Source: Dawidia soli (GTDB taxonomy: Bacteria; Bacteroidota; Bacteroidia; Cytophagales; Cyclobacteriaceae). From it: a DNA stretch of 64,000 nucleotides. The position numbers and the translations under genes are program-made. The notes below the pieces were generated by a model. That model was not told the DNA's origin, searched no databases, and worked only from the letters and a program-made list of their open reading frames with translations. Each line of letters starts with the position of its first letter. The first letter of the stretch is position 1. The stretch is from contig NZ_JAHESC010000019.1 of the NCBI RefSeq assembly GCF_018598185.1, positions 1 to 64,000 of the forward strand, written 5' to 3'. Below are positions 14,308 through 19,169 of the stretch, in pieces.

Positions 14308-15411
14308 TTAAACGCGTTCTGCCACTTTGTTCATCACGCCAGTCTGGATCTGGATCGACTCGTTGTGGATCAGTTTCAGCAACTCTTGCGTGAAGGCCTC
14401 GTTCAGCCCCATCGCCTTACCCAGCGTGATACGGGTCTGCATGATCTCTTCCCAGCGGTTTACCTGGAGAATGGTTACGTTGTTTTCCTTCTTGTATTGG
14501 CCGATCTTCTCCGAGATTTTCATACGCGAAGCAAGCTTCGACATGATCTCATCGTCCAACTGGTCGATCTGCTCGCGCAGGATGCTGAGCGTATCTTTGA
14601 AGCTCTTATTGTCAGACGATACCTCGCGCACTACCAGGCCTTCTACGATCTTGCCGAGAACAGCCGGTGTAACCTGTTGCTTGGCGTCGCTCCAGGCAGC
14701 ATCGGGATTGATGTGGCTTTCGATCATCAGGCCGGCCATGTCCAGGTCGAGGGCCTTCTGAGAGATCAGGGAGATCAGATCACGGTTACCGGCAATGTGG
14801 CTGGGGTCGCAAATGATGTCGAGCTCGGGAATGCGGGTCTTCAGCTCGATGCTCATGTCCCACATGGGCGCATTGCGGAAGGGGCCTTTTTCGAATGATG
14901 AGAAGCCGCGGTGGATAGCCGCCAGCTTGGTAATGCCGGCTTTGTTGAGGCGCTCCAGCGCGCCGATCCACAGCTCGAGGTCCGGGTTGATGGGGTTCTT
15001 TACCATCACCGGAATGTCAACGCCTTTCAGCGAGTCGGCCACCTCTTGTACCGAGAAGGGGTTTACCGTCGTACGGGCACCCACCCACAGAATATCGACA
15101 CCAGCCTTCAGGGCAGCCTCCACGTGCGCGGCATTGGCTACTTCGGTTGTGATGGGCAGCCCGGTCTCTTTCTTTGCCGCCGCCAGCCATTGCAGGCCGG
15201 GTTCGCCGGCACCCTCGTATTGACCCGGCCGGGTGCGGGGTTTCCAGATACCCGCGCGCAACGCGTGGATCTTGCCGGTAGCCGCCAGCTGTTTCGCTGT
15301 GGCAATGGTCTGTTCTTCTGTTTCTGCACTGCAGGGGCCGCTGATGATAACGGGTTTGCTGGCCGTCGGCAACCAGGAAGAGATCGGTTCAAGTTTCAGT
15401 GAATGTTTCAT
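14308..15411 (-). CDS. Bifunctional DAHP synthase / chorismate mutase
   Basis: The 367-residue enzyme has an N-terminal KDO8P-type (Ibeta) DAHP synthase barrel (about 1-265), seen in SGPCSAETEEQ, RAGIWKPRTRPG, WVGARTTVNPF, CDPSHIAGNRDL and DMAGLMIESHINPD. The C-terminal AroQ-type chorismate mutase (about 275-367) carries the DQLDDEIMSKLASRMKISE helix. It therefore catalyses both the first step of the shikimate pathway (PEP + erythrose 4-phosphate) and the step from chorismate to prephenate. The C-terminal mutase arrangement is characteristic of Bacteroidota and allows prephenate-based feedback. It is the last gene of the Phe/Tyr operon, 12 bases after tyrA. No single gene symbol is settled for this fusion. 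Confidence 0.95.
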   Translation of the reverse strand: MKHSLKLEPISSWLPTASKPVIISGPCSAETEEQTIATAKQLAATGKIHALRAGIWKPRTRPGQYEGAGEPGLQWLAAAKKETGLPITTEVANAAHVEAALKAGVDILWVGARTTVNPFSVQEVADSLKGVDIPVMVKNPINPDLELWIGALERLNKAGITKLAAIHRGFSSFEKGPFRNAPMWDMSIELKTRIPELDIICDPSHIAGNRDLISLISQKALDLDMAGLMIESHINPDAAWSDAKQQVTPAVLGKIVEGLVVREVSSDNKSFKDTLSILREQIDQLDDEIMSKLASRMKISEKIGQYKKENNVTILQVNRWEEIMQTRITLGKAMGLNEAFTQELLKLIHNESIQIQTGVMNKVAERV

Positions 15412-15423
15412 ATAGGTGAGTAG

Positions 15424-16335
15424 TTAAATTTTTGCAGTTGTTGATATAGGTTGTTGTTGTTGTTGAGTCTGTTGTTGTGTCTTGAGCTCGATACCGTCCA
15501 GCACGCGGCGGATCTCGTTGGCGCCCGACATGATGCGGCTCAGCTCCTGCGTGTCTCGCTTCAGTAAAAGGTAGTGGAACCGTTGCAGGTGCATGATATA
15601 CTCCTGCAACGCCTGGCTGAGGTATTCGAGGTTCTGCTCGAAGATCGGCGCCCACATGGCCGGCGAGCTTTTCGCCAGACGCACCGTAGACGCAAAACCG
15701 CTGCCCGCCAGGGCGAAGATATTTTTCTCGTCCTTCTCGATGTCGAGTACGGTTTGCCCCAGCAGGAACGAGCTGACGTGCGAGAGATGCGATACATAGG
15801 CTACGTGCTTGTCGTGTTCCTCCGGCTCCATAAAGATCGTGTTCAGCCCCAGGGCATCGAACACGCGGCGCGCCACGGTCAGGGCATGCTCTGAAGAGCG
15901 CTCCTGCTCGCAGATGATGTTCGTCTTGTGTTGGAACAGCCCGCGGAAGGCTGCCGTCGGGCCGGAGTTCTCCGTACCGGCAATGGGGTGCGCCGCCACA
16001 AACTGTGCCCGCCGGGGGTGGGTCGCTACTGCCCGGCAGATCGAGCTTTTGGTCGATCCGGCGTCTACCACGACAGCGTCGGGCTTTACCAGGTCGAGCA
16101 CGTTCGGCAACGTCTTTGCCAGGGCATTTACCGGTATCGCCACGATCACCAGGTCGGCCTCACGCAACGCTGCGTCTGCAGGCTGCACGCGGTCCACCAG
16201 GCCCAGCGCCACGGCCTGCTCGCCGTTGTCGGCATTCTGGTCGACGCCCGTCAGCGATGTGGCCAGCCCCGCGTGACGCAGGTCGAGCGCCATCGAGCCG
16301 CCGATCAATCCTAACCCTATTACAGCTACGTTCAT
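15424..16335 (-). CDS. tyrA: Prephenate dehydrogenase
   Basis: TyrA oxidatively decarboxylates prephenate to 4-hydroxyphenylpyruvate for tyrosine synthesis. I start it at the ATG at 16335, which overlaps the aminotransferase stop (ATGA) and places the Rossmann motif GLGLIGG at residues 7-13. A longer in-frame extension upstream lies inside the aminotransferase gene and is rejected. Further motifs are DAGSTKSSI, AHPIAGTENSGP and a helical C-terminal domain. The protein is 303 residues and ends in a glutamine-rich tail encoded by CAA/CAG repeats. No ACT domain is present, so any tyrosine control must come from the attenuator upstream of the operon or from the other enzymes. Confidence 0.94.
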   Translation of the reverse strand: MNVAVIGLGLIGGSMALDLRHAGLATSLTGVDQNADNGEQAVALGLVDRVQPADAALREADLVIVAIPVNALAKTLPNVLDLVKPDAVVVDAGSTKSSICRAVATHPRRAQFVAAHPIAGTENSGPTAAFRGLFQHKTNIICEQERSSEHALTVARRVFDALGLNTIFMEPEEHDKHVAYVSHLSHVSSFLLGQTVLDIEKDEKNIFALAGSGFASTVRLAKSSPAMWAPIFEQNLEYLSQALQEYIMHLQRFHYLLLKRDTQELSRIMSGANEIRRVLDGIELKTQQQTQQQQQPISTTAKI

Positions 16336-17501
16336 ACTTTCGCGGTCTTTAGAAAATTCTTCACACGTTCCAGTGCTTCTTTCAACATCGTCTCCGTGCA
16401 GCAAAGCGACACGCGGATGTAGCGGCGGCCGGCCTCACCGAAAATAAAACCCGGGGTGATAAACACCTTCGTACCGTATAAGATCTCGTCGATCCATTTC
16501 TCTACATCGGCAATGCGGTCGGGCGCCTTCGCCCACACAAACAAACCCGATTGATCGGCATAGGTACAGCCCAGCGCATCCAGCAGCTGGAGCGCCACCT
16601 GCTTGCGCTGGCGGTATACCTGGTTCAGTTCCTTGAACCACACATCGCCGTTCTTCAGCGCTTCCGTGGCAGCATGCTGCAGGCCCAGGAACATGCCCGA
16701 GTCCATGTTGCTTTTTACCTTCAGCACGGCATCGATAAACTCTTTCTTACCGGCCACCCAGCCCAGACGCCAGCCGGCCATATTGTGCGACTTGCTCAGC
16801 GAGTTTAATTCCAACGCCACCTCGTCAGCACCTTCGATGGAGAGGATGCTCATCGGGTTATCGTTCAGGATGAGGCTATAGGGATTGTCGTTTACGATCA
16901 GGAACTGATGTTTGCGCGCCAGGTCCACCAACGCCTTCAGCTCTTCGCGCGAAGCCACCCGACCCGTGGGCATGTGCGGAAAGTTCACCCACATGATCTT
17001 TACCTTCGACAGGTCGCTCTTCTCCAGCTCGGCAATGTCAATGCCCCAGTTCAACGACTCTTTTAAGGCATAGGGACGCAACCTGGCGCCTACCAGGTTG
17101 GCTACCGACGAATACGTGGGATAGCCCGGGTTGGGGATCAGCACTTCCTCCCCTTCGTTTACAAAGGCCATCGCGATGTGCATGATACCTTCCTTCGAGC
17201 CCATCAGCGGCAGGATCTCCGTCTCGGGGTTCAGCGTCGTGTTATATACCGTGCGATAGAAGTCGGCGATGGCCTGGCGGAACGCCGGGATCCCTTTGTA
17301 GTTTTGATAGCCGTGGTGCGCCGGGTTCTTCGCCGACGCGATCAGGGCATCGATCGTGGCGGAAGACGGTGCCTGGTCGGGGCTGCCGATGCCCAGGTTG
17401 ATCACGCGCAGCTCGGGCGTGTCCAGGCCACGTACCTCGGCCAGCTTCCGGCTGAAGTAGTACTCTTCCACATTGGCAATTCGTTTCGCTGTCTGTATCA
17501 T
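16332..17501 (-). CDS. Fold-type I aminotransferase of the Phe/Tyr operon
   Basis: The 389-residue PLP enzyme belongs to aminotransferase class I/II. Visible are the PLP-phosphate region GSKEGIMH (101-108), the substrate loop NFPHMPTG (173-180, a variant of the usual NxPxNPTG), D205/Y208, and the Schiff-base lysine K237 in SLSKSHNMAGWRLGW. Its position between prephenate dehydratase and dehydrogenase suggests transamination of phenylpyruvate and 4-hydroxyphenylpyruvate, or of prephenate itself. Sequence likeness to LL-diaminopimelate and aspartate aminotransferases means the substrate cannot be fixed from sequence. Its stop overlaps the tyrA start by four bases. Confidence 0.88.
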   Translation of the reverse strand: MIQTAKRIANVEEYYFSRKLAEVRGLDTPELRVINLGIGSPDQAPSSATIDALIASAKNPAHHGYQNYKGIPAFRQAIADFYRTVYNTTLNPETEILPLMGSKEGIMHIAMAFVNEGEEVLIPNPGYPTYSSVANLVGARLRPYALKESLNWGIDIAELEKSDLSKVKIMWVNFPHMPTGRVASREELKALVDLARKHQFLIVNDNPYSLILNDNPMSILSIEGADEVALELNSLSKSHNMAGWRLGWVAGKKEFIDAVLKVKSNMDSGMFLGLQHAATEALKNGDVWFKELNQVYRQRKQVALQLLDALGCTYADQSGLFVWAKAPDRIADVEKWIDEILYGTKVFITPGFIFGEAGRRYIRVSLCCTETMLKEALERVKNFLKTAKV

Positions 17502-17530: not shown

Positions 17531-18373
17531 TTACTTGTATTCGATCTTCGCCTTTTTATACTCACCCAGAACATTCAGGTTCTTTACCTGCCGCATGACG
17601 GCGCTCATCGCATCGTCATAGCTCTTGCGGCGCTTCCACTCTACGTCGATGTGAATAGAGTATTCGCTGGGCCGGCCGATGATCGGAATCGACTGGATCT
17701 TGGTCAGGTTAATGCGGTGGGTCTTGAACGTGGTAAGCGCGTCCGCCAGGCTCCCCACCTCGTTGGCTACCTCAAAACACATAGAGGCCTTGTTGCTTTC
17801 GATCTTGCGGTCGGCACGCTTGGCCAGGATCAGGAAACGCGTGAAATTCTTCTTATGCGTCTCGATGCGTTTCTCCAGAATCTGCAACCCGAATTTCTTG
17901 GCCGCAAACTCGTTGGCAATGGCCGCCGTATTCTTCAGTTTCAGCTCCTTCACACGGCGGGCCGACAACGCCGTATCGTCGCTCTCGCGGATCTCCACGC
18001 CGTTCAGCGCGTGCAGGAAGTCCGAGCACTGACGGATGGCCATGGGATGCGACTCAATGGTCTTAATATCGCTCAGCTTGGTGCCAGGCAGCGCCAGCAG
18101 GTTCATGTGGATCGGCAGGTACAGCTCGCCGATGATGCTGAAGTGATAGTCTTGCAATAAAAAGTAGTTCGGCAGAATGCTGCCGGCAATGGAATTCTCG
18201 ATGGCCATCACCGCATAGTCGCTGTAACCATGTTTCAGGCTCTCGCACAGCTGGTGAAAGGAAAGACACTCTACCGTTTCGATCGCCTCGGTAAAATACG
18301 TGAGGGCCGCTACCTCGTGAAAGCTTGCTGCGATACCCTGAATTGCAATTTTTAATTTCTTCTTTTTGGCCAT
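17531..18373 (-). CDS. pheA: Prephenate dehydratase
   Basis: The 280-residue enzyme converts prephenate to phenylpyruvate. It has the periplasmic-binding-like catalytic domain (about 8-180) with ESHPMAIRQCSDFL and DDTALSARRV. A C-terminal ACT domain (about 195-275) includes the GRPSEYSIHIDVEW stretch, which matches the ESRP-type region that binds Phe for feedback inhibition. There is no fused chorismate mutase, since that activity sits on the operon's DAHP synthase. It is the first structural gene, 42 bases downstream of an intrinsic terminator and a Phe/Tyr-rich leader peptide. It should therefore be controlled both by allostery and by transcription attenuation. Confidence 0.95.
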   Translation of the reverse strand: MAKKKKLKIAIQGIAASFHEVAALTYFTEAIETVECLSFHQLCESLKHGYSDYAVMAIENSIAGSILPNYFLLQDYHFSIIGELYLPIHMNLLALPGTKLSDIKTIESHPMAIRQCSDFLHALNGVEIRESDDTALSARRVKELKLKNTAAIANEFAAKKFGLQILEKRIETHKKNFTRFLILAKRADRKIESNKASMCFEVANEVGSLADALTTFKTHRINLTKIQSIPIIGRPSEYSIHIDVEWKRRKSYDDAMSAVMRQVKNLNVLGEYKKAKIEYK

Positions 18374-18415: not shown

Positions 18416-18444
18416 AAAAAAAAAGTCCCGGCTTTACCGGGACC
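18416..18444 (-). terminator. Attenuator terminator upstream of pheA
   Basis: A 7-bp GC-rich stem (gtcccgg/ccgggac, 5-base loop) is followed on the minus strand by nine T residues. It lies after the leader peptide and before the pheA start. Its 5' arm can instead pair with cgggac inside the leader coding region (18491-18496). Confidence 0.92.
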
Positions 18445-18485
18445 TTTCTGAGTTATCTTGCTATTCTTTACAATAACACCACTCG

Positions 18486-18548
18486 TTAGAGTCCCGTCTG
18501 GGGTCTAAAAAAGTAGTAGTAAAAGTAAAAGAATGTGTTGGTGTTCAT
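18486..18548 (-). CDS. Phe/Tyr leader peptide of the pheA operon
   Basis: This 20-codon reading frame, ATG to TAA, contains the uninterrupted run FFYFYYYFF at codons 6-14, followed by RPQTGL. It begins 19 bases after a consensus Bacteroidota promoter and ends 41 bases before the attenuator terminator. A ribosome stalled in the Phe/Tyr run for lack of charged tRNA would leave 18491-18496 free to pair with the 5' arm of the terminator. A ribosome reaching the stop codon would cover that segment and let the terminator form. This is the classical leader-peptide attenuation layout for an aromatic amino acid operon. The peptide itself is unlikely to have another function. Confidence 0.93.
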   Translation of the reverse strand: MNTNTFFYFYYYFFRPQTGL

Positions 18549-18566
18549 TTCAATCTTGATGTGCTT

Positions 18567-18597
18567 CAAAGATACGTGCATTTTTTTCGCAGATCAA
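18567..18597 (-). promoter_or_regulatory. Promoter of the Phe/Tyr operon
   Basis: The minus strand reads TTG (18597-18595), 20 bases, then TATCTTTG (18574-18567), a perfect match to the Bacteroidota TTG-N19/20-TAnnTTTG promoter. The start point should be near 18560, giving a leader of about 12 bases before the leader-peptide ATG. Confidence 0.85.
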
Positions 18598-18707
18598 AGT
18601 GGCGGTAGCATCTTTTATAAACTTTTCAAGAAACTAATGATTGTTAGTCAGTCAGTTACAGGCAAATTCACGCCGGAATTGTACTTTTGGCAAAAATCGA
18701 TATCCAA

Positions 18708-19169
18708 ATGAATACAACGCTGAAAACCGCCCTGTTCGTTTCCGCCCTGCTGGTGGGGGCCTGCGGCCCCAAAAATCAAGAGCACAACCATGACCACGAG
18801 CATGGCCACGACCACGAACATACCGCGGCCGACGGTAGTCCCAACCAGGCCCTGGGCGAAGAAGTCATGAAGGTACACGACGAGGTCATGCCCAGGATGA
18901 ACGATATCTATAAACTGAAAGAAGGTCTCAAAAAGAAATTGACAGAAACCGGCCTGGCCGACGATAAGAAAAAGGAGATCGAGCAGACCATTCACCAGCT
19001 GGACTCCGCCCACAACGGCATGATGGTATGGATGCGCTCCTTCAACCCGCAACCGGACTCGCTGGACGAAGAGAAGACCCGCAAGTACCTGGAGAGTGAA
19101 ATGGAGAAGGTAACGAAGGTGAAAGAGGACATCAACCAAGCCATCGCAAAAGCCGAAGCTATACATTGA
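18708..19169 (+). CDS. Histidine-rich lipoprotein, helical, unknown function
   Basis: The start is set at the ATG at 18708, which gives a short n-region, a hydrophobic segment and the lipobox LVGAC (Cys about residue 17). An earlier ATG would add seven residues that spoil the signal peptide. The mature protein opens with an Asp/His-rich stretch (DHEHGHDHEH) that could bind divalent metal. It continues as charged amphipathic helices with an HDEVMPRMNDIYKLK segment. Similar small lipoproteins occur in Bacteroidota under the uninformative name viral A-type inclusion protein. A TACTTTTG -7 element lies at 18682-18689. A terminator follows. Its role is unknown. Confidence 0.75.
   Translation: MNTTLKTALFVSALLVGACGPKNQEHNHDHEHGHDHEHTAADGSPNQALGEEVMKVHDEVMPRMNDIYKLKEGLKKKLTETGLADDKKKEIEQTIHQLDSAHNGMMVWMRSFNPQPDSLDEEKTRKYLESEMEKVTKVKEDINQAIAKAEAIH

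Follow-up and report, generated by a model that had tools for sequence, protein, structure and literature searches.

The pheA operon and the anatomy of its leader

The short region upstream of pheA in this 64-kb window (the whole stretch of DNA that was analysed, 64,000 nucleotides) raises the question of whether one leader could adjust an operon to the supply of two amino acids, phenylalanine and tyrosine. Judging from its sequence, the region very probably governs the pheA–aminotransferase–tyrA–DAHP synthase operon by ribosome-mediated transcription attenuation, with charged tRNA-Phe and tRNA-Tyr as the signals. This reading is directly supported by the anatomy of the region, its conservation, paired changes, the spacing of its parts and the content of the operon.

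The host genome comprises 7.48 Mb in 122 contigs. By profile matches, the gene order on the minus strand of the window is pheA – aminotransferase – tyrA – DAHP synthase/chorismate mutase, enzymes for making both Phe and Tyr. The first gene, pheA (17531–18373), encodes a prephenate dehydratase with PF00800 above its cut-off and PF01842 below; the NCBIfam prephenate dehydratase models also score below their own cut-offs for it. The other genes encode a class I/II aminotransferase (16332–17501, PF00155), the prephenate dehydrogenase TyrA (15424–16404, listed start uncertain; NF006307 above cut-off, with PF02153 and PF20463), and a DAHP synthase fused to chorismate mutase (14308–15411, PF00793 and PF01817). 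The closest named PheA found, with 97% identity, was that of Parachryseolinea silvisoli. On the plus strand, a divergent gene (18687–19169) encodes, as judged by eye, a lipoprotein-like signal followed by a His-rich stretch (HNHDHEHGHDHEH); a Pfam and NCBIfam search of its product gave no match up to an E-value of 0.001.

An earlier note on this DNA had described a promoter, a 20-codon leader peptide with nine consecutive Phe/Tyr codons, an intrinsic terminator with nine T residues ahead of pheA, and a CGGGAC segment at the end of the leader that can pair with the terminator's 5' arm. Each of these is borne out at the coordinates given in the note, the promoter and the ORF by direct reading, the terminator by reading and folding, and the pairing by folding. 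All of the features are on the minus strand. The promoter is of the Bacteroidota type, TTTG-N20-TATCTTTG, and precedes the leader ORF. Its −7 box, TATCTTTG (18567–18574), matches TAnnTTTG, and the TTTG 20 nt before this box (18595–18598) is presumably the −33 element, TTTG being part of the Bacteroidota-type consensus. TAnnTTTG is given as the −7 box in a passage of PMC9723704. A generic promoter and terminator scan flagged neither the pheA-leader terminator nor a sigma-70 promoter, and its scanner, by its description, handles no other promoter types. The leader ORF, MNTNTFFYFYYYFFRPQTGL, has 20 codons, from an ATG at 18548 to a TAA at 18488–18486 (18486–18548 with the stop codon). An in-frame ATG at 18581, which would give a leader of 31 aa, was ruled out as the start because it is 5' of the −7 box. 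The Phe/Tyr run, FFYFYYYFF, was found by both codon-pattern scan and ORF reading and occupies 18507–18533.

Several RNA segments and a T tract follow from the run toward pheA. Segment 2, CGGGACT (18490–18496, with its CGGGAC core at 18496–18491), is at the end of the leader ORF and forms the 5' arm of an antiterminator, pairing with 18444–18438 at −13.4 kcal/mol, a value equalled by 4 of 200 shuffles. Within this helix is a smaller one, between GAGT (18481–18484) and ACTC (18450–18453). Segment 3, GGTCCCGG (18437–18444), is both the 3' arm of the antiterminator and the 5' arm of the terminator. It is separated by a TAAAG loop from segment 4, CCGGGAC (18425–18431), the 3' arm of the terminator, whose hairpin folds at −16.9 kcal/mol. 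The nine T residues (18416–18424) are directly after segment 4. The region thus has what is expected of an attenuator: a short leader ORF with a codon run for the products of the operon, an intrinsic terminator between this ORF and pheA, and, as predicted by sequence and folding, a mutually exclusive antiterminator with a 5' arm that a stall would leave free.

From these features we infer a transcription start a few bases past TATCTTTG, translation of the 20-codon ORF by a ribosome coupled to the RNA polymerase ahead of it, and stalling as the response to starvation for either amino acid. If Phe or Tyr were short, the ribosome would stall in FFYFYYYFF, and segment 2 (CGGGAC) ahead of it would stay free to pair with newly made segment 3 (GTCCCG) – the terminator would be blocked, and the operon transcribed. 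If both amino acids were plentiful, the ribosome would reach the stop codon and cover segment 2, segment 3 would pair with segment 4, and transcription would end at the T tract.

Conservation upstream of pheA

To count as the element, an upstream region needed a short ORF containing a nine-residue stretch with six or more F/Y, and a terminator behind it. A total of 268 loci were collected, and 16 (14 duplicates and two with a short upstream region) were omitted, which gave 252 distinct regions upstream of pheA. The element was found in 131 of the 252 and was absent from the other 121; 131/252 is not a population frequency, because many of the loci were chosen in order of PheA similarity. On the reverse strands it was found in none of 252, and it was found in one of 5040 dinucleotide shuffles. 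The first set of loci gave similar elements in 81 of 102 distinct regions, with a terminator in all 81. The earlier note had asked whether the aromatic run or the terminator is lost in relatives; both recur, with paired changes, in the 131 regions.

Every one of the 131 runs contains both Phe and Tyr, and in 129 each occurs two or more times. Averaged over the final 11 residues of the run, there are 4.2 F and 3.3 Y; W is also present in 32 of the runs. The dual sensing that the earlier note had suggested for an operon that makes both amino acids is consistent with these counts and with the gene content, and is predicted here. It is unlikely that the element is a real attenuator that in practice senses just one amino acid, the codons for the other being neutral filler. 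A single mutation turns a Phe codon into a Tyr codon, since TTY and TAY differ at one position, and the enteric pheA leader uses Phe codons. However, a sensor of Phe alone should have lost its Tyr codons in some lineages, and both residues were present in every run, nearly always at least twice. Sensing of both amino acids is the preferred reading.

The promoter motif is conserved in part. TAnnTTTG was found 8–75 nt 5' of the nominal start of the run in 35 of the 131 loci, compared to 10 of 131 in the adjoining stretch further upstream and 174 of 2620 shuffles. The matches were TATCTTTG in 10 of the 12 printed examples. The exact TAnnTTTG is absent from most of the distant leader loci.

The element is distributed unevenly across relatives. 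In other orders of the same class it was found in all 33 of the upstream regions read, from 35 matched genomes (G191 and G271 were the matches left out); some genomes of the class had no PheA match. In other classes of the same phylum it is carried by 4 of the 51 loci read, which came from 50 genomes out of a larger number of matches. These four, L150, L151, L153 and L177, encode a PheA 43–47% identical to the query, and it is possible that the operon was transferred together with its leader. In a sample of other genera of the host's own family, the element is present at 9 of 43 readable loci, and many of the remaining loci have a different, longer PheA. Because a long pheA may begin upstream of its nominal start, leaders were sought up to 1300 nt upstream, and no convincing leader besides those counted was found in that range. 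L227, from another class, has a candidate F/Y-rich ORF ca. 441 nt before a long-PheA match, with a strong terminator.

Some of the leaderless pheA genes have other neighbors. Among the neighbors that were classified, an EPSP synthase gene (aroA) is upstream of pheA in L026, L030, L133, L136 and L143, and in L019 the upstream order is EPSP synthase and then a DMT_6 gene. In L115, L121, L124, L126 and L128 the leaderless pheA is next to other, unrelated genes. The attenuator may be lost when pheA enters a larger operon.

RNA pairing and covariation

The pairing of segment 2 with the terminator arm was compared with that of shuffled spacers. In the first set it was within rank 10 of 200 in 80 of the 81 loci, and within rank 2 in 71; in the full set it was within rank 5 of 100 in 117 of the 131. 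Of the 81 candidate sequences, 70 were aligned, and 11 close relatives were left out. In the alignment 99.1% of the terminator cells are paired, and 8 of its 10 pairs are changed on both sides. For the whole antiterminator 69.6% of the cells are paired. None of 500 shuffles reached either of these values and 0 to 4 of 500 reached the other antiterminator measures, although kinship among the sequences inflates the significance of these shuffle tests.

The main antiterminator helix, between segments 2 and 3, is 83.2% paired, with changes on both sides at six of nine pairs, a covariation partly shared with the terminator because segment 3 is common to both. Its variants across relatives include GGGAC/GTCCC, GGGGC/GCCCC, GTGAGACTC/GAGTCTCAC and GGGGGATT/AATCCCCC. 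The inner helix, GAGT/ACTC, is 71.6% paired, and all four of its pairs are changed on both sides. Conservation is poor for the innermost hairpin of the antiterminator, in which 49.9% of the cells are paired. When the antiterminator was slid out of its actual register, the score was lower.

A covariance-model search of seven genomes of the same genus had the pheA leader as the top match in all seven, five of these leaders being within the model. The next match in the host's own genome, C61 (42.9 bits), was rejected because it seems to be a terminator that separates two other genes.

Ribosome position and the choice between structures

If a ribosome is assumed to extend 12 nt from the start of its A-site codon, segment 2 stays free for a ribosome stalled anywhere in codons 6–14, which are exactly the Phe/Tyr run, and covering begins one codon further on. 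A ribosome at the stop codon covers segment 2 in the window under the same assumption. The geometry claimed by the earlier note, in which segment 2 is freed by a stall and hidden once translation reaches the stop codon, therefore holds for this window with that footprint.

Folding with the ribosome-covered bases masked gave the same division. Before segment 4 is made, segments 2 and 3 pair when the ribosome is stalled at codons 6–14, and do not when it is anywhere from codon 16 up to the stop. Adding segment 4 makes the terminator the minimum-energy fold wherever the ribosome was placed, and the choice must therefore be kinetic, set by the order of synthesis.

Spacing across the 131 loci is tighter toward the run than toward the stop codon. 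Segment 2 starts a median of 10 nt after the last aromatic codon of the run, with a standard deviation of 2.9, and its position relative to the stop codon has a standard deviation of 12.0. Such a near-constant distance from run to segment 2 is what a stall sensor needs. In many relatives, with tails like GLERESVC, segment 2 ends 14–20 nt before the stop codon, which puts it behind a ribosome stopped there, and it would therefore not be covered directly.

These results bear on two explanations that need no sensing of amino acids. The terminator could be a constitutive early stop that produces a small RNA, the short ORF being incidental. The terminator by itself is the minimum-energy fold, and there are Rfam matches to several small-RNA families; these were set aside because all of them are below threshold. 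A small RNA would have no need of an F/Y run, of a segment 2 at a nearly constant distance from it, or of paired changes between segments 2 and 3, and this explanation is very unlikely. It is more improbable still that the ORF encodes a functional hydrophobic micropeptide. The product would be a short aromatic peptide of conserved composition, but the order and number of F and Y, the flanks and the length of the ORF vary widely among the loci, while the F/Y content and the RNA arms persist. An attenuator remains the preferred reading.

Specificity of the Phe/Tyr run

A search for seven consecutive TTY/TAY codons gave the pheA leader as the sole match in the 64-kb window, and no match in any of 100 shuffles. 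In the 7.48-Mb genome the same pattern had six overlapping matches in three places, compared to four matches for a reversed control pattern. Of the two places other than the pheA leader, one is AT-rich and the other is a TTC/TTT repeat; when they were scanned neither had an F/Y leader ORF, so only the pheA leader qualifies among the Phe/Tyr leaders sought by codon pattern in the host genome. The same search in 25 genomes whose pheA has no leader was set aside as uninformative because the pattern did not outnumber its reversed control (235 matches vs. 292). As these counts indicate, AT-rich relatives have many codon runs of this kind, but the chance that an AT-rich run simply lies beside an unrelated terminator is close to nil given the shuffle and reverse-strand counts above and a run that is unique in the window.

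Tandem leaders and leaders for other amino acids

One genus of the same order was examined in 61 genomes; 55 of them gave PheA matches, and the best 30 loci (L305–L334) were read. Two F/Y leader–terminator units precede pheA in 21 of these, and a single unit in nine. There were no units on any of the 30 reverse strands; among 3000 shuffles, 18 had one unit and none had two. Both runs have at least six F/Y in nine residues in all 21 of the tandem loci. Antiterminator pairing exceeded that of 95 of 100 shuffles in 10 of the 21 first units and 13 of the 21 second units, and the pairing segments of the tandem units are thus partly supported. The tandem arrangement was first noticed in L134, L139, L141, L231 and L171, the last of these from another family. 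It is proposed that at the tandem loci a double gate reads the same two amino acids twice before pheA.

Two leaders in series are known from Salmonella, where the mgtCBR leader has tandem attenuators that answer ATP and proline, as described in an excerpt of PMC3641672. Like the tandem pheA loci, it has two leader ORFs in a single leader RNA. The mgtCBR attenuators, as characterized there, respond to two different signals, whereas both of the tandem pheA leaders carry Phe/Tyr runs.

Attenuation is probably not limited to pheA in the host. In the host genome (L355, ca. 1523–1760), a Leu/Ile/Val-rich leader ORF ending in VLVIVVILVVVKPAGAMVI and a GC-rich terminator are found before ilvE, which was identified by NF005146 and TIGR01122 above cut-off and has an ilvD-like gene behind it. 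This leader has counterparts in L343–L346 and is likely to be a second attenuator in the genus. On the same contig, ca. 8 kb past the ilvE leader, a similar terminator (CCGTCCCGATACCCTCGGGACGG and a T run) is found before leuC (TIGR00170; L356, ca. 1470–1617), with no clear leader ORF seen in that upstream region.

Comparison with known attenuators

The enteric pheA attenuator (Rfam RF01859, Phe_leader) also consists of a terminator and a short leader ORF before pheA. Its ORF is rich in Phe codons, and it senses Phe alone. Unlike the enteric run, the one described here has codons for both Phe and Tyr, and tyrA is part of the operon. The pheA leader has a full-length but weak match to RF01859 (26.1 bits, below the gathering score of 55). 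Among 40 loci scanned with this model, including the window's own (L001), one reached the cut-off. This match, in L074 (2842–2974), scores 55.2 vs. the cut-off of 55, yet several of the model's pairs are unformed. An Rfam cmscan of the leader region, with 12 matches up to an E-value of 10, included neither the Bacteroid-trp family (RF01692) nor T-box families.

Leaders that respond to more than one amino acid are known from E. coli, in which ilvGMEDA and thrABC have multivalent attenuators, a single leader having codons for more than one amino acid. By description these are alike in their multi-amino-acid leaders and differ in the amino acids.

Related observations have been made in the phylum. 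A structured element without an Rfam hit has been reported upstream of pheA in Flavobacterium psychrophilum and other Flavobacteriaceae, with strong clues for leader-peptide attenuation at amino-acid operons (PMC9723704, in part). It has the phylum and the downstream gene in common with the element described here; section 19 of that paper gives no leader sequence, antiterminator or statement on Phe and Tyr for it. The same source, in another passage, describes Bacteroidota mRNAs as being without Shine–Dalgarno sequences. Bacteroid-trp RNA, RF01692, is listed as a cis-regulatory RNA of Bacteroidetes in a portion of PMC2864571; it is like the pheA leader in being from Bacteroidetes, and its name points to an aromatic amino-acid operon. 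ORFs reminiscent of leader peptides are mentioned in a passage of PMC7366714 for long 5' UTRs of Bacteroides. In searches of the open-access literature, none of the listed titles and abstract openings described a mixed Phe/Tyr attenuator, which is not proof of absence.

For leader-peptide attenuation in Bacteroidota the locus offers a clear example that is open to testing and seems to respond to two amino acids at once, and the short, easily missed ORF upstream of pheA could be annotated across the class. The tandem loci raise the question of what a second gate adds for one signal. On balance, we lean slightly toward the broader view that bivalent Phe-plus-Tyr attenuators extend across the Bacteroidia, are probably old in the class, and act as a serial double gate in one genus of the host's order. 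As a mechanism, leader-peptide attenuation is a classic – what is new here, relative to the systems above, is the predicted bivalent sensing and the class-wide spread.
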